Shown here one piece after another: positions 50,633 through 64,000 of a stretch of DNA of 64,000 nt. Position numbers and translations under genes: made by a program. Origin of the DNA: a virus; IMG/VR virus record IMGVR_UViG_3300029985_000017, positions 99,230-163,229 of that record, one strand, 5' to 3'. The notes beneath the pieces were generated by a model, which saw only the letters and a program-made list of their open reading frames with translations, had not been told where the DNA came from and made no database searches. How positions within the stretch are numbered: the stretch's first letter is position 1; each line of letters opens with the position of its first letter.

Positions 50633-50782
50633 AGGTGGGTCAGTTCGCCATTCTGACTTCTTGGTTTTAACCTATGCAGTATCTACCCTGCATTCGTACA
50701 ATACGACGGAATCCACTCGCGTAAAGAAAATAAGGCCCAAGCCTAGGAATTATAGACACGTTAGGGCTACGTGTGTCCACCT
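50633..50782 (-). ncRNA. Structured RNA element A
   Basis: About 150 nt with no gene. Minus strand closes with AGGTGG (50777-50782) against CCACCT (50633-50638). The 3' hairpin next to it (50639-50657) has a 5-bp stem GTCAG/CTGAC and the loop AATGGCGAA. A sigma70-like promoter ends seven bases upstream, so transcription would begin on the first base of the closing stem. Followed by AATTTTAAAGGA. Member of a six-copy family (B, C, D1, D2, E). Confidence 0.6.
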
Positions 50783-50788
50783 TTAATC

Positions 50789-50817
50789 AGACTAATCTAT
50801 GTATTTGGGAAAGTCAA
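50789..50817 (-). promoter_or_regulatory. Promoter TTGACT-N17-TAGTCT of RNA element A
   Basis: Minus strand TTGACT (50812-50817), TAGTCT (50789-50794). Predicted start A50782, the base of the element's closing stem. Confidence 0.7.
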
Positions 50818-51080
50818 GAGTTATTTTTTTGAGAGTATTCTGTAACAGAAATAAGCATATCTAGAAAGTTTTTAGCACCAAGATTGTAAACTTCGAGTTG
50901 TTCATGAGGAATAACCCCTCCATGATGATCTTGGATCCATCGGGCTTCAGCGTCATACATACACATAGCAATATTGGATTGCCACGTATGATAATAGCTT
51001 CCTGGGGCTTTTCCTTCTGCTTTTAACGCTTCCACTAAAATATCCATAGCTTGTCTAGTCTTCATAATAGATGGTGTCAT
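50814..51080 (-). CDS. Unknown protein
   Basis: 88 residues, helical (TRQAMDILVEALKAEGKAPGSYYHTWQSNIAMCMYD). Its last codons overlap the -35 of the RNA element A promoter. No family recognised. Confidence 0.62.
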   Translation of the reverse strand: MTPSIMKTRQAMDILVEALKAEGKAPGSYYHTWQSNIAMCMYDAEARWIQDHHGGVIPHEQLEVYNLGAKNFLDMLISVTEYSQKNNS

Positions 51081-51083
51081 ATT

Positions 51084-51770
51084 TTAATACTCCGGCCAGT
51101 ATTTAGCCAACGGATGGTCTGCGCCAAATTGCATGACAGCTACATCAGTCATACCATTAAGATAATCCTTGAACAATCTTCGTTTCCAGAGTTTGGCGGC
51201 CATGCGACACATCCAAGACTTGGGGGCTGCAACTTGAATCAATAACCATGCCAAGGCTCTGGCATCCGTATTGCTGGTTGGAGTGGGCAAACTAGCATAC
51301 AAAATAACCATCGCAGTATAGAATCTAAATGGAAAAAGTGGGGTCTTCCCAGCCGCCCATACGTAAGCGGAGTATAGTTGTAATTGACGCCATAGGAATG
51401 CTTGGTCTGTCCAGGTTCCATCAACGTTATTGAATGCTCCGTAGTGTTTATAGCCATAGGTAAGGGTGTCTTGGGCTAAGCTTTTATCTTGGAGGAATGA
51501 AGCTGCTGAAGCTACACCAAAATTATCGTCTGGAGCTTCTTGCCCCCCAGCATTAATAGGATTACGCATTAGGAGTCCGGGGACCTTAAAACAAGACTCT
51601 ATAATAGCCTTATAATTCATTTGATCTACAAGAGTAGCTTGGCCTAGGCGATTTAGAATAACGAAGTATTCGGATAAATAAAGAACCCCATTATTGGAAC
51701 CGGTGTTTAGTCTGGGTTGAACTAGACCATATTGATCTAGATAGGGAACGATTTCGTCTTTGAGGGACAT
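51084..51770 (-). CDS. Unknown conserved phage protein
   Basis: 228 residues, mostly helical, Trp/Tyr/Leu-rich (NNGVLYLSEYFVILNRLGQ, DNFGVASAASFLQD, FPFRFYTAMVILYASL). The pattern recalls a helical-barrel protein seen in other large phages, but I cannot name the family. Confidence 0.65.
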   Translation of the reverse strand: MSLKDEIVPYLDQYGLVQPRLNTGSNNGVLYLSEYFVILNRLGQATLVDQMNYKAIIESCFKVPGLLMRNPINAGGQEAPDDNFGVASAASFLQDKSLAQDTLTYGYKHYGAFNNVDGTWTDQAFLWRQLQLYSAYVWAAGKTPLFPFRFYTAMVILYASLPTPTSNTDARALAWLLIQVAAPKSWMCRMAAKLWKRRLFKDYLNGMTDVAVMQFGADHPLAKYWPEY

Positions 51771-51771
51771 A

Positions 51772-52095
51772 TTATTCCTTATCTAATTCTTCGGCCACAA
51801 AAGCAGGGAAAGGACTGGAAAGTGTATATAAATTAACCGGTTTCCCGTTAGAAACATAGTCGGTAGAAGTAGGTTCAGATTTTTCCAATTCAGTATCAAT
51901 TTCAAGATCAAAATCACCATACATTACCATAGTAACCTTCGCCATAGATCCGGCTTCTACTTCAAACCTAAGAGACTTAACAAATTTAAGAGGAACGTCG
52001 TCCAGAAATACTTGGCAGTTAAAACCGGATGTTAGTTCACCTGAATCTGGTCTTTTGCAAACTTTAATTTTTTGAGTTTTAGTTTTATTTTCCAT
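51772..52095 (-). CDS. Unknown protein
   Basis: 107 residues, beta-sandwich-like (CQVFLDDVPLKFVKSLRFEVEAGSMAKVTMVMYG), which recalls small phage proteins with a jelly-roll or Ig pattern. No family recognised. Confidence 0.58.
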   Translation of the reverse strand: MENKTKTQKIKVCKRPDSGELTSGFNCQVFLDDVPLKFVKSLRFEVEAGSMAKVTMVMYGDFDLEIDTELEKSEPTSTDYVSNGKPVNLYTLSSPFPAFVAEELDKE

Positions 52096-52374
52096 TTAAA
52101 ATCCCATCGCTTTTTCGACAGCTAGATCTTCATGACAAAGCCATACAGCGTCCTTTAAATAATTTTTAGTTACCTTCGCATGATATTGATGAATTTTACA
52201 ATTCCCTTTATATTTATCGTCTATTTGCACTTCAATGTCCGCTTCCGCTCCTTGATATGGGCCACTAACCACTTTTACATGGTCCGCCCACCTATAGGGC
52301 TCTATTTGGGAGACGTATTTAGAACAACCAGTAAGAGCCCATATAGTCAAAACCAAAACCAAATACCTTTTCAT
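52096..52374 (-). CDS. Small lipoprotein downstream of RNA element B
   Basis: 92 residues with signal peptide YLVLVLTIWALTGC (lipobox LTGC, Cys17). The mature part begins SKYVSQIEPYRW and has a KOW-like phrase KVVSGPYQGAEADI. Envelope-located; function unknown. AAGGAG follows RNA element B. Confidence 0.7.
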   Translation of the reverse strand: MKRYLVLVLTIWALTGCSKYVSQIEPYRWADHVKVVSGPYQGAEADIEVQIDDKYKGNCKIHQYHAKVTKNYLKDAVWLCHEDLAVEKAMGF

Positions 52375-52391
52375 AAATACTCCTTAAAATT

Positions 52392-52606
52392 GTTGGCGGG
52401 GCTTTCGCCGTGCTCGCGCTAGAGGTTCACCGGATGATCCCTCCCAATCTAGTAGCAAGCTAGATCTCCGCGCCTATGTGCTTCATGGTTTATGCACACA
52501 TACAAACCACTCTCAACTGCTTTTACCCTCGAATTACTGCTTTTACTCCCGTTTAAGGGCACCGCAGAGTACAGGGGTTATTGCAGCCCACACACCTACC
52601 GCCAAC
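52392..52606 (-). ncRNA. Structured RNA element B
   Basis: 215 nt without a gene. Minus strand closes with GTTGGCGG (52599-52606) against CCGCCAAC (52392-52399), 8 bp. Internal hairpins include GGC-GAAA-GCC next to the 3' closing strand, AATCTAG/CTAGATT-type and ATGTGC/GCACAT stems, and a CCCTTAAACGGG motif shared with other members. TATGATATA stands exactly eight bases upstream; AATTTTAAGGAG follows. Confidence 0.6.
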
Positions 52607-52614
52607 GTATTGTT

Positions 52615-52623
52615 TATATCATA
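52615..52623 (-). promoter_or_regulatory. Late-type element TATGATATA of RNA element B
   Basis: Minus-strand TATGATATA, eight bases before the closing stem of element B. Confidence 0.5.
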
Positions 52624-52655
52624 ATTACGTTTAATCCAAGACCTCTCGGTACAAG

Positions 52656-52790
52656 TTAACTAGCTATCCGTCCAGGACAGCTTTTGTTCTCATTTTTAAG
52701 AATTAACTTTTTCAACTGTTTCTTCGGTTTTTTAACCTCAGAAACTGTGCCTCTCAAACGAACTCGATCGCCTAAATTGAATTGCGTCAT
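52656..52790 (-). CDS. Unknown basic small protein
   Basis: 44 residues: an SH3-like start (TQFNLGDRVRLRGTVSEV) then Lys-rich sequence (KKPKKQLKKLILKNENK). AAGGAGTAAAC precedes the ATG. Lies between the 52800 gene and element B. Confidence 0.6.
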   Translation of the reverse strand: MTQFNLGDRVRLRGTVSEVKKPKKQLKKLILKNENKSCPGRIAS

Positions 52791-52799
52791 GTTTACTCC

Positions 52800-52991
52800 T
52801 TATTTACAATTACCATTAATAAACTTTTTAATGGCTTCTAGATCTTCATCAAAATGAACTTGTTGACCCTTGCGTTCAGCTTCATAGACAGCCAAATCAA
52901 ACAAAGGACTCATCAATTTAGAGCACTCTATGGGTGATCTATGTACATGGGGATGGGTTAAAGCAAAAATTAAAATCATTACGTTGGTCAT
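52800..52991 (-). CDS. Unknown exported small protein
   Basis: 63 residues from ATG 52991 (GGGGGAAAG upstream). Hydrophobic start (TNVMILIFALTHPHVH) may be a signal segment; two Cys in the rest. No family recognised. Confidence 0.58.
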   Translation of the reverse strand: MTNVMILIFALTHPHVHRSPIECSKLMSPLFDLAVYEAERKGQQVHFDEDLEAIKKFINGNCK

Positions 52992-52992
52992 T

Positions 52993-53205
52993 TTACTTTC
53001 CCCCAAAATATGTTAAATAGTGTGTATGCGCCTGACTTGAAAAAAGACTTAGGATAGCAGAAGTTATAAAAGCTACTTTAAATAATGGCTTAATATCTTC
53101 AAACTTCTCTATGCCGTTATTATAGAAGTGCGTACCGAACATAAGGCTAATCCAGCCGCTAAAATGAATGATGTAGGCATGAAACCAAGTAGTTAGATAA
53201 TTCAT
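52993..53205 (-). CDS. Unknown small membrane protein
   Basis: 70 residues with two likely membrane segments (AYIIHFSGWISLMFG; VAFITSAILSLFSS). Overlaps the upstream gene by four bases. Confidence 0.6.
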   Translation of the reverse strand: MNYLTTWFHAYIIHFSGWISLMFGTHFYNNGIEKFEDIKPLFKVAFITSAILSLFSSQAHTHYLTYFGGK

Positions 53206-53696
53206 TTAATAAAAGTAGCTGTATAAATAGTTTCGCCATCATGATCGTATCTGTAGTCAGGAATCACCCTATACTTTCCGGGGCCGTCCCAAACCAAACT
53301 ATAGTTATAATAGTATGAGTACCTCTTCAGAGCTAAAGTCAACGCTTCAGCTTGTTCTTTACTGGTAAATGTAGCACATCCTTCTTTGCCTTCAACCCCC
53401 ATTGCGGGATAGTAGCACTCCTCAAAACTGGTTTCTTTTATAAGTCTATTTTTATTATCTTCAAACGCTTTATTTTTTATTTTCATGTCAAGTATGTTAA
53501 ATTGGTGATATAATTTATCATGTTCGTCTACTGAAGGTTTTAGTAGATCCATTTTAATTTTCATTTGTTCAAGTCGTCTTTCATCGGTCCATATATAATT
53601 GGGATCTGTAAAATTAGGGCATTTGGGACATAAATAGTCTATGCCATAATCAACCATTTGAGTACCGCAGTCTGTACAAAGAAATAGAGTAGTCAT
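53202..53696 (-). CDS. Zinc-ribbon protein
   Basis: 164 residues. N-terminal zinc ribbon CTDCG...CPKCP (residues 7-29), a helical middle, then a beta domain ending DHDGETIYTATFIK. Function unknown. Confidence 0.65.
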   Translation of the reverse strand: MTTLFLCTDCGTQMVDYGIDYLCPKCPNFTDPNYIWTDERRLEQMKIKMDLLKPSVDEHDKLYHQFNILDMKIKNKAFEDNKNRLIKETSFEECYYPAMGVEGKEGCATFTSKEQAEALTLALKRYSYYYNYSLVWDGPGKYRVIPDYRYDHDGETIYTATFIK

Positions 53697-53698
53697 AA

Positions 53699-53899
53699 TT
53701 AATTCTCGCCTTTATTGTGAGCATCAGATATATAGTAAATTCCTAAACTAGCGATAATAAGTATTGGTAGAGATGCTCCCACCAAACCAAAATATGAGCT
53801 AATGTTTGCCGATGCCCAACCAACTAAAAGGCAATACCCTACAATGCCAAGCATAATCAACCAAAAATAGGCCACTTCTTTAAGAGCTTGCTTATTCAT
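53699..53899 (-). CDS. Small membrane protein, two spans
   Basis: 66 residues from ATG 53899 (GAGAGGG upstream). Two hydrophobic segments (VAYFWLIMLGIVGYCLLVGWA; SLPILIIASLGIYYI). Could be a holin by shape, but the setting among accessory genes gives no support. Confidence 0.6.
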   Translation of the reverse strand: MNKQALKEVAYFWLIMLGIVGYCLLVGWASANISSYFGLVGASLPILIIASLGIYYISDAHNKGEN

Positions 53900-54098
53900 A
53901 TTTAAATCCCTCTCTAACAATTTCAACATTCTCCCATTTTGTCTCACCAGTAGTTCTACATAAAAGCTGCTGTTGAAGGGTGTCTTTATAAATAGGACGA
54001 ATACTGGGATTGTTAATATACCTACGAATTCTAAAGTTATTGGTCTTTTCCCAGAAATATACTACTACGGGTGGAACTCCTTCTGTGCCTATGTCCAT
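53892..54098 (-). CDS. Unknown small protein
   Basis: 68 residues from ATG 54098 (GGAGGGC upstream). Basic beta-type sequence (VVVYFWEKTNNFRIRRYINN). Overlaps the next gene by eight bases. Confidence 0.58.
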   Translation of the reverse strand: MDIGTEGVPPVVVYFWEKTNNFRIRRYINNPSIRPIYKDTLQQQLLCRTTGETKWENVEIVREGFKYE

Positions 54099-54102
54099 TC
54101 TA

Positions 54103-54474
54103 TTAGCCCTCCACAATTTCAACAGCTTCTATTTCAGAAACTGGAAAATATACACCATCAGAGGTGTCAAATCTTCCAAATTTAAATATACTCTCTATAT
54201 AAGCTTGGGCTCTTTCTTTGGAAGTCCATTTAAAGATAGTATATCTAAAACCTGCGATCTGAGCTTTAGGTTCAAAATATTCAGAATACATAGGGGCATC
54301 GAGACCTTTTACATGAACACAAACCCTAGACTTAGGAAGTGCGTTTTGCTCTTTTAGCCAGGTATCGTATTCTTGTTCTGCTGCAGCTTCACGAAGTTGG
54401 TTATCTTTTTTGTCAGCTTTATATGCCCAGATGCCAAAAGCTATGAATGATAAGAATATGAGTAGGGCTATCAT
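54103..54474 (-). CDS. Unknown membrane-anchored protein
   Basis: 123 residues from ATG 54474 (TTAGGAGTCCTT upstream). One N-terminal membrane span (ALLIFLSFIAFGIWAYKA) and a cytoplasmic or periplasmic domain. Its ribosome-site region is a perfect 26-base copy of that of the 54494 gene. Confidence 0.62.
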   Translation of the reverse strand: MIALLIFLSFIAFGIWAYKADKKDNQLREAAAEQEYDTWLKEQNALPKSRVCVHVKGLDAPMYSEYFEPKAQIAGFRYTIFKWTSKERAQAYIESIFKFGRFDTSDGVYFPVSEIEAVEIVEG

Positions 54475-54494
54475 AAGGACTCCTAACAATTAAC
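54469..54494. repeat. 26-bp direct repeat, copy 1 (ribosome-site region)
   Basis: Identical to 54941-54966. Covers the end of the upstream gene, the AGGAG and the first codons of the 54103-54474 gene. Confidence 0.85.
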
Positions 54495-54946
54495 TATTTG
54501 CTTTTATTCATTTGATCTACTTGTTTTTGAAGATCTTTTACTTTTTCATCGTGTTCTGGAGTCCATTCATAATTGGTTATTTCACCAAAAATACCATAGG
54601 AACGGATGTAGTCAAAATCGTTTTCTGTAGAGTTTTTAGTCCTTAGATTAAATTGATAAATTTGACTATTACAATAGCCAATTAATTTGGTCATATAAGG
54701 CAGTTTGGGCATATTGTTTACATCTAAAACTACAGTACCTGAAATAACATTATCAAGACATTCCTTCATAATCTTTGTGTCTTCTTTAGCGCCATCAGAA
54801 ATATGATAGGACTCAAATTCTTTTACTTTAGCCCACGTCTCTTCATCTAGATCGCCTTGAATATCTATAACAGAAAAGGTACCTAGAGGACGACCCCATC
54901 GATCGGAATCCTCAATAATATATGGTAATTTGGCTATTCGTATCAT
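54494..54946 (-). CDS. Unknown protein
   Basis: 150 residues from ATG 54946 (TTAGGAGTCCTT upstream). Alpha/beta; ends with a coiled-coil tail (EHDEKVKDLQKQVDQMNKSK). No family recognised. Confidence 0.62.
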   Translation of the reverse strand: MIRIAKLPYIIEDSDRWGRPLGTFSVIDIQGDLDEETWAKVKEFESYHISDGAKEDTKIMKECLDNVISGTVVLDVNNMPKLPYMTKLIGYCNSQIYQFNLRTKNSTENDFDYIRSYGIFGEITNYEWTPEHDEKVKDLQKQVDQMNKSK

Positions 54947-54966
54947 AAGGACTCCTAACAATTAAC
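54941..54966. repeat. 26-bp direct repeat, copy 2 (ribosome-site region)
   Basis: Identical to 54469-54494, in the same position relative to the next gene. Confidence 0.85.
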
Positions 54967-55242
54967 CGTGGTAAAGGGATACCCTATCCCAACTATAGCG
55001 CCTGGTATACCTTGGGTTCCACCAATAGTCTGGCCGGTTGGCTGAGTGGTTGGCTGAGCGCCTTTATGGACATCGCTCAAAACTTTTTGATGAGCAGCGT
55101 CTCCATGTGAAGGGTCGATTTCGTGCTTAAAGACCATATTCAAATGGTTTCTAATGACTTCGACTTGTTTTTCAGTTAGATTCGTTGAGCCAGAAATCTC
55201 AAAATGTCCTTGAAGCCAATAACAAAAATCTCGTGAAGTCAT
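54955..55242 (-). CDS. Conserved small phage protein downstream of RNA element C
   Basis: 95 residues. N-terminal SRDFCYWLQGHFEI, LTEKQVEVIRNHLNMVFKHEIDP is a phrase shared by many phage small proteins of unknown function; the C-terminal 40 residues are Thr/Gln/Gly-rich. AAAGGAG follows RNA element C. Confidence 0.7.
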   Translation of the reverse strand: MTSRDFCYWLQGHFEISGSTNLTEKQVEVIRNHLNMVFKHEIDPSHGDAAHQKVLSDVHKGAQPTTQPTGQTIGGTQGIPGAIVGIGYPFTTVNC

Positions 55243-55260
55243 AAAGTCTCCTTTAAAAAA

Positions 55261-55453
55261 TACCCCGAATCTCGCATCGGGATAACCGCGCTTGTTGCTA
55301 CCTATTGGACTTGAGACGCCCTAGACCTTGGGTAGCTCAGGGATTGCGCATACGATTCCACGTTACGCTTTCGTGACCTCTCTAGGGCTACAACTCCACC
55401 GGAGAAGTAGCTTACCTGGGTGTTTTACAACCCATTTAAGGAATCGGGTCAGC
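55261..55453 (-). ncRNA. Structured RNA element C
   Basis: About 190 nt between a promoter and the 55242 gene. The 3' hairpin (55264-55281) has the family geometry: 5-bp stem CCCGA/TCGGG and 8-nt loop TGCGAGAT, followed by GGTATTTTTTAAAGGAG. The 5' end (GCTGACCCGATT) could compete for the same TCGGGGT strand, which would open the terminator-like hairpin. Also contains CCTTAAATGGG and CCTAGAGAGGTCACG, shared with D2 and E. The long closing stem is not clear in this copy. Confidence 0.5.
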
Positions 55454-55459
55454 TATACA

Positions 55460-55488
55460 ACCTTACCAAAGGATTTTAAAGAAGTCAA
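55460..55488 (-). promoter_or_regulatory. Promoter TTGACT-N17-TAAGGT of RNA element C
   Basis: Minus strand TTGACT (55483-55488), TAAGGT (55460-55465). Predicted start near 55453. Confidence 0.68.
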
Positions 55489-55497
55489 GAAAATAAT

Positions 55498-55554
55498 AAA
55501 GTGTATCTTATAATGATCATAATACCCATTTTTGTATATTATACGATACACTTT
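55498..55554. terminator. Long inverted repeat upstream of element C promoter
   Basis: AAAGTGTATC (55498-55507) pairs perfectly with GATACACTTT (55545-55554), and inside it TATAAT pairs with ATTATA: a stem of about 16 bp with one mismatch. The T-rich flank suggests a terminator for transcripts leaving D1. Confidence 0.55.
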
Positions 55555-55846
55555 GGCCAAAAATACCCTATTCTGATGGCGCAGCCCCAATAGACCTAAA
55601 ATATGTTTAAACACATTAGAAAGATATGTTTAAATATATTTGGCGGCGGTTTAATATTATTCCTATAGCACAACAATAGGTTGTGTATTGGGAGTTAAAA
55701 TAAACTAAGGATTGTCACTTTTGAGGGTTTATTGACGATCCTTAGGAATAAAAATGGGCAGGTCTTCACAAGGTGTCCTAAACACCGAGAATTTATCGGG
55801 ACCTGCTTAGCCCCTAAGCCTTTACACTTAGAAGTACCCTTAAAAA
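55555..55846. other. Non-coding region with several hairpins
   Basis: No gene found. Contains two copies of ATATGTTTAAA (about 55602 and 55622), an inverted repeat TAAGGAT-TGTCA / TTGAC-GATCCTTA around 55707-55745, and a compact foldable stretch near 55758-55815 (GCAGGTC...GACCTGC closing stem with inner GGTGT/ACACC hairpin). A 10-base string AGGTGTCCTA occurs here and again near 56664. Confidence 0.45.
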
Positions 55847-56026
55847 GTTGACGGGTGGGTCGCGACTCCCACAATGAGGCCCCTTGCAGTCAGGATTGCA
55901 CTCAGTTTTAGCCTGCTCTGCAAGATGCGTGTTCTAGTGGGCTGACCATTTACTTTCGTCGCATGTCGCAGTTACCGTCTACCGCAGCACTTGTAGACCC
56001 CACGCGTCTTCCACGCCTCCGTCAAC
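55847..56026 (-). ncRNA. Structured RNA element D1
   Basis: 180 nt. Minus strand GTTGACGG (56019-56026) pairs with CCGTCAAC (55847-55854). The 3' hairpin (55855-55872) is GTGGG-AGTCGCGA-CCCAC. Other stems: GTCTAC/GTAGAC and CTTGCAG/CTGCAAG. Contains GGCGTGGAAG and ACTAGAACACGCA, conserved in D2 and E. TATGATATA stands exactly eight bases upstream; TTTTTAAGGG follows. No gene lies directly downstream, so it is likely a free RNA. Confidence 0.65.
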
Positions 56027-56034
56027 GTACCGTA

Positions 56035-56043
56035 TATATCATA
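56035..56043 (-). promoter_or_regulatory. Late-type element TATGATATA of RNA element D1
   Basis: Minus strand TATGATATA in the 23-base spacer between D2 and D1, eight bases before the D1 stem. Confidence 0.5.
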
Positions 56044-56049
56044 AAACTT

Positions 56050-56217
56050 GTTGACGGGCCGGTCGCGACACCGGCTTCGGGCTTAAATGTAACGATACTG
56101 GCCCATTTAAGGGTAGCGTACCCGACCACTCGTCTGATGTGCGTGTCTCTAGCGGTAGCCATCCGTTGTCATATGACCTCAACGACCCTCGCCGCAGCTT
56201 TCCACGCCTCCGTCAAC
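56050..56217 (-). ncRNA. Structured RNA element D2
   Basis: 168 nt. Closing stem GTTGACGG (56210-56217) with CCGTCAAC (56050-56057). 3' hairpin (56058-56075) GCCGG-TGTCGCGA-CCGGC: compared with D1 all five pairs are kept while bases change. Contains AGGCGTGGAAAGCTG, CTAGAGACACGCA and CCCTTAAATGGG. A sigma70-like promoter places the start on G56217, the first base of the stem. Confidence 0.68.
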
Positions 56218-56223
56218 TATTAC

Positions 56224-56252
56224 AGGCTAACCTAAAGAACTGGGAAAGTCAA
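56224..56252 (-). promoter_or_regulatory. Promoter TTGACT-N17-TAGCCT of RNA element D2
   Basis: Minus strand TTGACT (56247-56252), TAGCCT (56224-56229). The TGA stop codon of the upstream gene lies inside the -35. Predicted start seven bases past the -10 at 56217. Confidence 0.72.
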
Positions 56253-56593
56253 GAACTGTTTTTAGCTATTTCAATAAAAGTTTTTAAATTAATATTCGCT
56301 TGCTTGATTTGATTTTCTAAATATTCAATAAGAACATTAAAATCAGACTTCTTTGCCAATCTGACATTATCCGGATGTGTCCAGCCCTCATAATACATGA
56401 GGCCGTCTCGAGGGTCTCTTACAGCATAACAATAGTCCACTTCCAGTTCTTTGGCTTCTTTCTCAGAACACTCGAAAAAATGCAAGCCAGATATCAGGGG
56501 ACTATAATAACCGTATTTACCGTCTTCTTCTAATTGAACAGGATATTTATTATATTCAGTTATAATCCAATCGCCCTTTTTATATTTTTTCAT
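56249..56593 (-). CDS. Unknown protein between RNA elements
   Basis: 114 residues, Lys/Tyr-rich N-terminus (KKYKKGDWIITEYNKYPVQLEEDGKYGYYSP), helical end. The only gene between RNA elements D and E. Promoter 56600-56628 leaves six bases to ATG 56593, so a leaderless mRNA is expected. Confidence 0.7.
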   Translation of the reverse strand: MKKYKKGDWIITEYNKYPVQLEEDGKYGYYSPLISGLHFFECSEKEAKELEVDYCYAVRDPRDGLMYYEGWTHPDNVRLAKKSDFNVLIEYLENQIKQANINLKTFIEIAKNSS

Positions 56594-56599
56594 TGAGTT

Positions 56600-56628
56600 A
56601 ATTTAACAAGGAATTTGGAGGAAGTCAA
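56600..56628 (-). promoter_or_regulatory. Sigma70-like promoter TTGACT-N17-TAAATT
   Basis: Minus strand TTGACT (56623-56628), TAAATT (56600-56605), six bases to the start codon. Confidence 0.72.
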
Positions 56629-56639
56629 GAACTATTTTC

Positions 56640-56814
56640 CATTATCCGGTTGGCGAAGCTCGCTAGGTGTCCTAGAAGGCCTTCACGATCCCTAGGCCCT
56701 CAGTTGCCCTCGGGCTCCTATAAAGCCAGGTAAAGCGTAAAAGCTATTAATAGGCGGTAAGGGGCCAAGCCTTTATAAAAACGCGCTATAAGTCAACTGG
56801 GGGCGGTTTAAAGT
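56640..56814. other. Hairpin-rich non-coding spacer
   Basis: No gene. Several short stems (GCGAAGCTCGC, CTAGG-TGT-CCTAG, GCCCTCGGGC). It may be a decayed member of the RNA family: minus strand runs from GTTGACTT to CGCCAACC, but the closing stem is only four pairs. Confidence 0.35.
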
Positions 56815-56982
56815 GGAACTGGCAGGGTAGGGCGCGACTCCTACTCTGCGAATGCTCGCAGTCCACCATAACGTGTCTCTAGTGATCAGGATCGGTACCA
56901 AGCCGATTTAAGCAGCGCCCCTACCGTCTGCACCCTATAATCGAATATTAGATCCACAGCTTTCCACGTCGCCGCCAGTTCC
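56815..56982 (-). ncRNA. Structured RNA element E
   Basis: 168 nt. Closing stem GGAACTGGC (56974-56982) with GCCAGTTCC (56815-56823), 9 bp. 3' hairpin (56827-56844) GTAGG-AGTCGCGC-CCTAC. Contains ACGTGGAAAGCTG, GCTTAAATCGG and CACTAGAGACACG. GTGATATA lies exactly eight bases upstream. No gene directly downstream. Confidence 0.65.
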
Positions 56983-56990
56983 TAAAGGGA

Positions 56991-56998
56991 TATATCAC
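56991..56998 (-). promoter_or_regulatory. Late-type element GTGATATA of RNA element E
   Basis: Minus strand GTGATATA, eight bases before the closing stem, as at B and D1. Confidence 0.45.
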
Positions 56999-57009
56999 GA
57001 CTCCAAAGG

Positions 57010-57777
57010 ACCCTGGGTTCAGGGAGCCCTTTTAAGAGAGAATTTTTCGGAAATTTTTTAATGAAGTCATATAGTTAGGAGTGTTTAAAAATGGGGGTTT
57101 TGCGTAAAACTCTAAAAAAGACAAATATATGAAATTATTAAAGAAATGTGTATTTAATAGCTTATTGGGGGAGAGGCAGTTTATAGGGAAAAATTCTGGA
57201 AAAATTTTTTTAATCGTGATTGCACGTCTATATAGAATAGACTATAGAGTTGTAATCATTGGAAACCCCGAAAACACTATATTATCAATGACTTATCTCC
57301 ATGTCACCTATGACACACGTTGATTTCATTAGGGTTTATGCGCCTAGACTTTGGGCATAGACTGTTATTGACACACTTACACTATCCTGATGCTTGACAC
57401 AGCCTAACACCATTGACGAATGACCGCGCCGCTGTTAACAATTGACTTTATGGAATCGGAGACTAACTCCGACTCATTGATATCATTGACTTATATTGAT
57501 TTAACAAACTTGATTAAACATTTTGCTATTTTGTGCAGTGCTGTAACTCACATATAGACGACTTGACACACTTGACCGATCGACCATGACCATGCCGCCA
57601 TTGACCTATAGGACGCACGAATGCCTGGCTCCCGGTGGGTGCCAGGCTTGACTCAGGGTATATAATTTTGTGGTATATAACTTGCATTTTGAATGCTATT
57701 AGGTGGGTCAATGACGACTCACTATAGACTTACTTTAGAATGCAAGATACACTACATAGTAAAGATTAGGCGACTAG
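57010..57777. other. Divergent junction with strand-biased TGAC repeats
   Basis: Separates the leftward blocks from the rightward arm and holds no convincing gene. From 57289 to 57860 I count about 20 TGAC on the plus strand against three GTCA. Also two clean hairpins, TCGGAG-ACTAA-CTCCGA (57456-57472) and GCCTGGC/GCCAGGC (57623-57647), and a T7-promoter-like core (57714-57727). Candidates are a replication origin or control region; the sequence alone does not decide. Confidence 0.5.
57714..57727 (+). promoter_or_regulatory. Exact match to T7-class promoter core
   Basis: ACGACTCACTATAG, identical to T7 promoter positions -13 to +1; the four bases upstream are AATG instead of TAAT. It points toward the rightward arm. 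Whether it works is unknown, as no T7-like polymerase is in this window. Confidence 0.35.
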
Positions 57778-63503: not shown

Positions 63504-64000
63504 ATGAAGTTTCAAATTAAAAATCGTTTTGATTCATCGGTTATCTTTGAATGTGAAGCAGAATCTTTTGGCATTGCTGTTGAACTAGCTATTAAAGCTG
63601 GGGCGAATCTCTCTGGGGCGAATCTCTCTAGGGCGAATCTCTATGGGGCGAATCTCTCTAGGGCGGATCTCTCTAGGGCGGATCTCTATGGGGCGAATCT
63701 CTCTGGGGCGAATCTCTCTAGGGCGAATCTCTCTGGGGCGGATCTCTATGGGGCGAATCTCTCTGGGGCGGATCTCTCTAGGGCGGATCTCTCTGGGGCG
63801 GATCTCTCTAGGGCGAATCTCTCTGGGGCGAATCTCTCTAGGGCGAATCTCTCTGGGGCGGATCTCTCTGGGGCGAATCTCTCTGGGGCGGATCTCTCTA
63901 GGGCGGATCTCTCTGGGGCGGATCTCTCTTTTACTTGTATCTTTGGATTATACTTAGGGAAACATTTTGTATTCGGATGGAAAAAGACCAAAGAAATCGT
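63504..64000 (+). CDS. Pentapeptide-repeat protein, C-terminus outside the window
   Basis: 165 residues visible, open at the window end. The N-terminus ([23 protein letters not shown]) is a short phage module; from residue 33 about 22 repeats of A(N/D)L(S/Y)(G/R) form a right-handed beta-helix, whose shape can mimic DNA in some family members. It ends in a hydrophobic stretch ([15 protein letters not shown]). AAAGGGA precedes ATG 63504. Confidence 0.85.
63600..63929 (+). repeat. Tandem 15-bp repeats (about 22 units)
   Basis: Units of the form GGGGCGAATCTCTCT with a few alternating changes (A/G in AAT/GAT, TCT/TAT, GGG/AGG). Near-identical at the DNA level, so recently expanded or kept alike by recombination; the copy number probably varies between isolates. 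Confidence 0.9.

Follow-up and report, generated by a model that had tools for sequence, protein, structure and literature searches.

A covarying structured RNA with a nearly invariant loop core in phages of very different size

Six elements, A, B, C, D1, D2, and E, lie on the minus strand of the window analyzed here, a stretch of 64,000 bases that comprises bases 99230-163229 of the 163,229-base IMG/VR virus record IMGVR_UViG_3300029985_000017. An earlier reading, made from the sequence alone, had grouped all six into one family of structured RNAs with covarying stems. Only D1, D2, and E are members of one homologous family, which, beyond what the sequence-only reading had proposed, spans dozens of phages of very different size and has as its invariant part an internal loop together with the loop of a hairpin, P4. 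As judged by comparison of sequences, the evidence that this family is a real structured, covarying RNA is overwhelming, and it comes from covariation across phages and not from folding energy. It is a new RNA class, and what is claimed as new is the class, not a biochemical principle behind it.

Viral contigs were scanned with 17 bases representing the 5' core half (GGMGTGGAAAGCTGYGG). Of the 37 stretches returned, most also contain the other core half (CCACTGGAGACACGC), separated from the first by a gap of variable length. In most stretches this second half is followed by a hairpin with the loop GTCGCG or GTAGCG and then by the perfect complement of the bases preceding the core. Because none of them was in the query pattern, the second core half, the hairpin, and the closing stem constitute an independent confirmation. 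A covariance model, R1, was built from 27 copies, including D1, D2, and E, with the variable loops mostly trimmed, and further scans with gapped and one-sided patterns and then with R1 brought the total to 85 matches. The 84 distinct matches reside in about 68 IMG/VR viral records (1 to 3 copies each) and, as single copies, in two bacterial metagenome-assembled genomes (MAGs); because the choice of patterns restricted what could be sampled, the true family is larger.

Comparison of the copies, which measure 104 to 231 nucleotides (nt; median, 178), yields a three-way junction. The closing stem, P1, contains at least 6 base pairs (bp) and is free in sequence; it is followed by a 2-nt CG linker and by an arm composed of P2 (GCGUG/CACGC), the internal loop GAAAGCU/UGGAGA, and P3 (GUGG/CCAC). 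P4 is a 5-bp hairpin with the loop A-GU(A/C)GCG-N, and it directly adjoins the 3' strand of P1 (P1'). Two parts are hypervariable, the P3 loop and the segment that separates P2 from P4. Conserved unpaired bases comprise the CG linker, both sides of the internal loop, an A immediately preceding P4, and, within P4, the loop A-GU(A/C)GCG, and most unpaired core columns are 91 to 100% conserved while P1 varies freely.

Across 84 sequences, in an alignment that was fitted to the model and hence leans towards structure, 96.2% of cells are paired and 20 of 22 pairs covary, including all eight pairs of P1 and all five of P4. Two-sided changes number 455 in this alignment, against 124 +/- 14 in column shuffles and 51 to 94 when partners are slid by 1 to 3 columns, and the covariation first read from six elements is thus present in a much wider set. 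The earlier 27-copy alignment, made by sequence alone, gives the same picture (96.2% paired; 121 two-sided changes versus 34), and a mutual-information scan of the fitted alignment, to which the pairs were not supplied, ranks the same helices first. Next in that scan is internal-loop position 20 with position 269 beside P4, a contact that supports a composite loop site. Single-sequence folding energies of the window elements are modest (z, -0.9 to -2.2), so that structure is unprovable from one genome alone. These unexceptional energies would fit a chance fold or a mobile DNA repeat without RNA function, but this explanation is refuted by the covariation and has a vanishingly small probability, since two-sided changes stand far above both the shuffles and the slid controls and the promoter and U-tract described below are strand-specific.

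In the window, D1, D2, and E contain the features of R1 (P1, P2 with the GAAAGCU/UGGAGA loop, P3, and P4 with the GU(A/C)GCG loop adjoining P1') and score 41.8 to 61.4 bits, and an R1 search detected no further copy in the rest of the 163-kilobase (kb) record. Their coordinates are as follows; R1 scores and expectation values were obtained with filters off.

56815-56982, minus strand: RNA copy E, full element from P1 to P1'; 54.8 bits, expectation value 1.4e-11; closing stem GGAACTGGC/GCCAGTTCC
56962-56968, minus strand: E, 5' strand of the conserved P2 and internal loop, CGTGGAA, invariant in the family alignment (A5)
56872-56882, minus strand: E, 3' strand of the conserved internal loop plus P2', CTAGAGACACG
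56827-56844, minus strand: E, hairpin P4, GTAGG-AGTCGCGC-CCTAC
56050-56217, minus strand: RNA copy D2, full element; 61.4 bits, expectation value 4e-13; closing stem GTTGACGG/CCGTCAAC
56200-56206, minus strand: D2, 5' strand of the conserved core, CGTGGAA
56142-56152, minus strand: D2, 3' strand of the conserved core, CTAGAGACACG
56058-56075, minus strand: D2, hairpin P4, GCCGG-TGTCGCGA-CCGGC, directly adjoining P1'
55847-56026, minus strand: RNA copy D1, full element, located 23 nt behind D2; 41.8 bits, expectation value 1.5e-8; closing stem identical to that of D2
56009-56015, minus strand: D1, 5' strand of the conserved core, CGTGGAA
55928-55937, minus strand: D1, 3' strand of the conserved core, CTAGAACACG, shorter by one base
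55855-55872, minus strand: D1, hairpin P4, GTGGG-AGTCGCGA-CCCAC, directly adjoining P1'

The strings that had been described as common to the elements, CGTGGAA, CTAGAGACACG, and CTTAAAYSGG, are all present. The window contains five occurrences of CTTAAAYSGG where 0.54 would be expected, a count reached in none of 100 shuffles, and four of the five are inside B, C, D2, and E. A family-wide UUAAAU motif was considered and set aside, being enriched but confined to about one-tenth of the copies. Behind both E and D1, the sequence TAGGACACCT (56665-56674 and 55771-55780, minus strand) lies in stretches able to form more stems.

A baseplate protein of the window phage is common to 11 of the 18 larger carrier records tested (25 to 66% identity), indicating that the RNA is widespread in a single lineage of large myoviruses. 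It is also carried by contigs of about 4 to 60 kb and by a phage-like gene block, with repressor-, ERF-, and Gp157-like open reading frames (ORFs; judged by eye), in a Gammaproteobacteria MAG. A spread through prophages was tried as an explanation and rejected, the single copy among 274 genomes of that MAG's class being the one in the MAG itself. In a relative of the window phage with a 66% identical baseplate protein (G007), positions 74600-76200 of the minus strand (L161) hold three tandem RNA elements, each preceded by a TGATATAWW-type motif, so that the D2-D1 tandem is a repeated arrangement. R1 matches the middle element in full, the third in its 3' part only, and the first not at all, with UAAACAAU replacing the consensus P4 loop in the first; judging from these sequences, strongly diverged copies exist.

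Two observations concern the variable P3 loop. One copy (L017, 5901-6103) has within it a stretch resembling a transfer RNA (tRNA; GGGAGTAGCTCAG ... GTGGGTTCGAGTCCCACC), as if a tRNA remnant had been inserted. Two others (L014, 9892-10111, and L041, 784-983) begin this loop with the same sequence, GAGTGTTACAGCACTTTTGAGCG, and differ in their P1 stems, suggesting that the variable loops may fall into subtypes.

Promoters had been read as set so that transcripts begin at the closing stem, and the predictions agree: a -10-like hexamer ends exactly 6 nt before the first base in all six window elements. The promoter type is TTGACT-17 nt-TAnnnT in A, C, and D2 and TGATATA in B, D1, and E. Those of the three family members, as predicted from sequence, are the following.

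56989-56996, minus strand: phage-type promoter of E, TGATATAT(C), separated from E by 6 nt
56224-56252, minus strand: promoter of D2, TTGACT-17-TAGCCT, 6 nt before D2
56033-56041, minus strand: phage-type promoter of D1, TGATATATA, 6 nt before D1; the motif also precedes copies in G007 and L032

Across the family, 24 of 83 upstream regions contain a sigma70-type promoter of at least 7 bits positioned for a start in P1. This is four times the 6.0 found in shuffled upstream DNA (maximum, 13), and a position shifted by 40 nt gives 5 of 83. For many copies, these statistics support a predicted transcription start at the first P1 pairs.

The 3' side is marked by uridines. The share of T is 37 to 68% over the first eight bases after P1 and then returns to background, and a run of at least four U's within 12 nt after P1' occurs in 38 of 82 copies, as opposed to 4 of 81 in a control stretch. 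Such runs are about equally common with (16 of 30) and without (21 of 51) a following gene, indicating that the U-tract belongs to the RNA. P1 followed by a U-tract could combine an aptamer stem with a terminator, and invariant loop bases in a free scaffold are typical of aptamers; both would suit a riboswitch or attenuator in which a ligand bound to these loops controls the formation of P1 ahead of the U-tract and hence whether downstream transcription proceeds. We nevertheless hold this to be quite improbable, since the downstream genes share no common pathway and many copies control no gene. The few invariant loop bases, freely covarying stems, and tolerated insertions resemble known small ribozymes and would suit a self-cleaving ribozyme or other catalytic phage RNA, but there is no match to Rfam ribozymes, and the positions of promoter and U-tract befit a finished transcript and not processing, which leaves catalysis a very slim prospect.

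Most copies have a co-directional gene behind them. In 30 of 81 (about 37%) a ribosome site with a start codon comes after 13 to 74 nt (median, 20), and in the other 51 there is no such site within 75 nt. The proteins that follow include RecA, chaperonin Cpn60, a metallophosphoesterase, a nucleotidyltransferase-NUDIX protein, and an aminotransferase, kinds so different that the RNA has no tie to any single pathway. A convergent gene lies behind 17 copies (by simple ORF calling), at a distance of 0 to 8 nt in some cases, so that a leader-only reading is insufficient and the earlier suggestion of free RNAs gains support. The element has the appearance of a small RNA that stands on its own and can serve as a leader as well.

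The placement of copies before genes would also fit a generic 5' module acting in cis, in which the messenger RNA starts inside P1 and the double-stranded 5' end and compact fold shield it from 5'-dependent decay or aid the ribosome, irrespective of the gene. The predicted starts at P1, the 30 copies close to a ribosome site, and the unrelated following genes, as a generic booster would have, all agree with such a module. However, the 17 copies with a convergent gene behind and the 51 without a nearby ribosome site do not, and a paired 5' end would not require about 20 near-invariant loop bases, and we consider this explanation unlikely.

The predicted transcript starts would also fit an RNA-only antiterminator like HK022 putRNA, in which the nascent RNA would bind RNA polymerase from the operon start so that terminators are passed. 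The fold and size of putRNA are unlike those of the new RNA. The family can have several copies per genome, and E is the first element of a leftward gene block in the window; antitermination would, however, be purposeless for copies with a convergent gene a few bases away, and a U-tract directly after P1 resembles an ending, not an anti-ending. We regard an antiterminator as improbable, despite the precedent of putRNA as a structured phage cis-element that works via its transcript alone (PMC9378689). PutRNA is cis-acting on early transcripts, whereas the new family has the closing stem P1, the invariant internal loop, and copies facing convergent genes.

We tentatively favor a new class of phage-encoded small RNA that is released free, sometimes serves as a leader, and acts in trans via a composite loop site on a conserved factor. 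Closing of P1 ahead of the U-tract would end transcription and thereby release a free, end-protected RNA, and read-through in some phages would turn the RNA into the 5' leader of the neighboring gene. The internal loop and the P4 loop may jointly form a single binding site for a conserved cellular or phage factor, and via this site the RNA would work in trans; candidate factors are the transcription or translation machinery or a defense component to be titrated. With more reserve, we suggest that this is a trans-acting RNA class in unrelated tailed phages, including the lineage of 115- to 180-kb myoviruses, that binds one conserved host component (polymerase, ribosome, or defense factor), the variable loops tuning or targeting its action.

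Several points weigh against a free, trans-acting RNA. Both its starts and its ends are sequence predictions; the promoter enrichment is clear yet involves a minority of copies, and some copies lie within operons with no obvious promoter (L093 and the second copy of L008). A cis role fits the approximately 37% of copies in front of a ribosome site as well, and copies without a gene are the only evidence that favors action in trans over action in cis. What we infer about termination at P1 comes from the U-tract, and a trans target is a supposition. No partner protein was found: CsrA, which would have made the family a CsrB-type sponge RNA, was tested as a candidate among 41 records and rejected by co-occurrence, being present in 2, one of them a bacterial genome. 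The idea of CsrA had come from a csrA-like gene just before an RNA copy in a prophage-like region of the Gammaproteobacteria MAG (L081, 7376-7600).

The claim that no known family accounts for these elements is upheld by Rfam 15, which at the gathering threshold gives no family match in the window or in 15 relative loci (14 with copies), other than a separate tRNA in L012. A permissive Rfam scan of the region gave one chance match elsewhere, resembling a small nucleolar RNA, and ARAGORN detected no genes for tRNA or transfer-messenger RNA in the window. The closing stem, the 2-nt linker, and the 5-bp hairpin adjoining the 3' strand recall the acceptor stem and T-arm of those two RNAs, but the length of P1 is not fixed, and there is neither a T-loop consensus nor a CCA end. 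GOLLD and ROOL, large structured RNAs of bacteria and phages that were likewise found by comparison before their function was known, have other folds and Rfam models of their own, none of which matches here, and are hundreds of nucleotides longer than the new RNA with its copies of 104 to 231 nt. Both form RNA-only complexes (PMC12286853). The vrRNAs of VIPR, which consist of 9 to 16 tandem YNNGG repeats, resemble the new family in that several small phage RNAs with variable and constant parts occur per genome (PMC13142463), but the longest YNNGG run in the 84 copies is 1 (65 copies) or 2 (19 copies).

No description of the RNA was found in open-licence papers, although closed-access papers or other preprints may hold one. 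A blastn search of the region and three copies against 50,697 phage records produced only short chance matches, which does not prove absence, as blastn is weak for so short a core; the lack of a convincing match would explain why the RNA has been overlooked. Widely conserved RNA classes missing from current libraries are uncommon finds, and presence in phages of very different size would imply a common target in the cell. With a nearly invariant core, pull-down and structural work can address the partner directly.

The remaining three elements resemble D1, D2, and E only in part.

50633-50782, minus strand: element A, with P1, a 2-nt linker, a hairpin, P4 (UGGCG loop) adjoining P1', and a promoter; without the conserved core
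52392-52606, minus strand: element B, with an 8-bp closing stem, the promoter TGATATAAA, and CTTAAACGGG; without the conserved core
55261-55453, minus strand: element C, a leader in which CTTAAATGGG, CTAGAGA, and CGTGGAA appear in rotated order, with a terminator-like hairpin at its end; without a closing stem

None of the three gives an R1 match at expectation values up to 10 with all filters off, and the proposed six-member family is thereby reduced to three. Closing stems occur at the listed coordinates in every element but C. The hairpin beside the 3' strand of that stem, which had also been proposed as a common feature, occurs in A, D1, D2, and E. The hairpin of B is GGC-GAAA-GCC and not of the family type, and that of C (CCCGA/TCGGG, then TTTTTT) is the clearest intrinsic-terminator-like hairpin of the region. 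The geometry of A, a 6-bp P1 with an adjoining 5-bp hairpin, is insignificant by itself, since it arises by chance zero to four times (about two) per simulated 64-kb sequence; its 8-bp version, as in D1 and D2, never does. A and B are possibly diverged relatives, with layout and promoter class as their only common ground with the family.

C is not a family member in the strict sense. The order of CTTAAATGGG, CTAGAGA, and CGTGGAA in C is a rotation of that in E, and a pattern scan of viral contigs for circularly permuted copies with a canonical core, an idea taken from C, returned none, so that C may be a rearranged (permuted) relative or a patchwork. Leaders homologous to A and C were sought in related phages, where relatives of the two genes were found without such a leader in front. 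The proteins of window genes near the elements (56249-56593 and 51084-51770) have no relatives in the viral contigs searched.

Two further features were noted in the window. Positions 57000-57700 form a gene-poor region between divergent gene blocks, with many repeated GTCAA/TCAATGA words, and are possibly an origin or control region. On the minus strand at 63625-63901, eight copies of CTAGAGA are spaced at multiples of 15 bases, constituting a tandem repeat that overlaps predicted ORFs.

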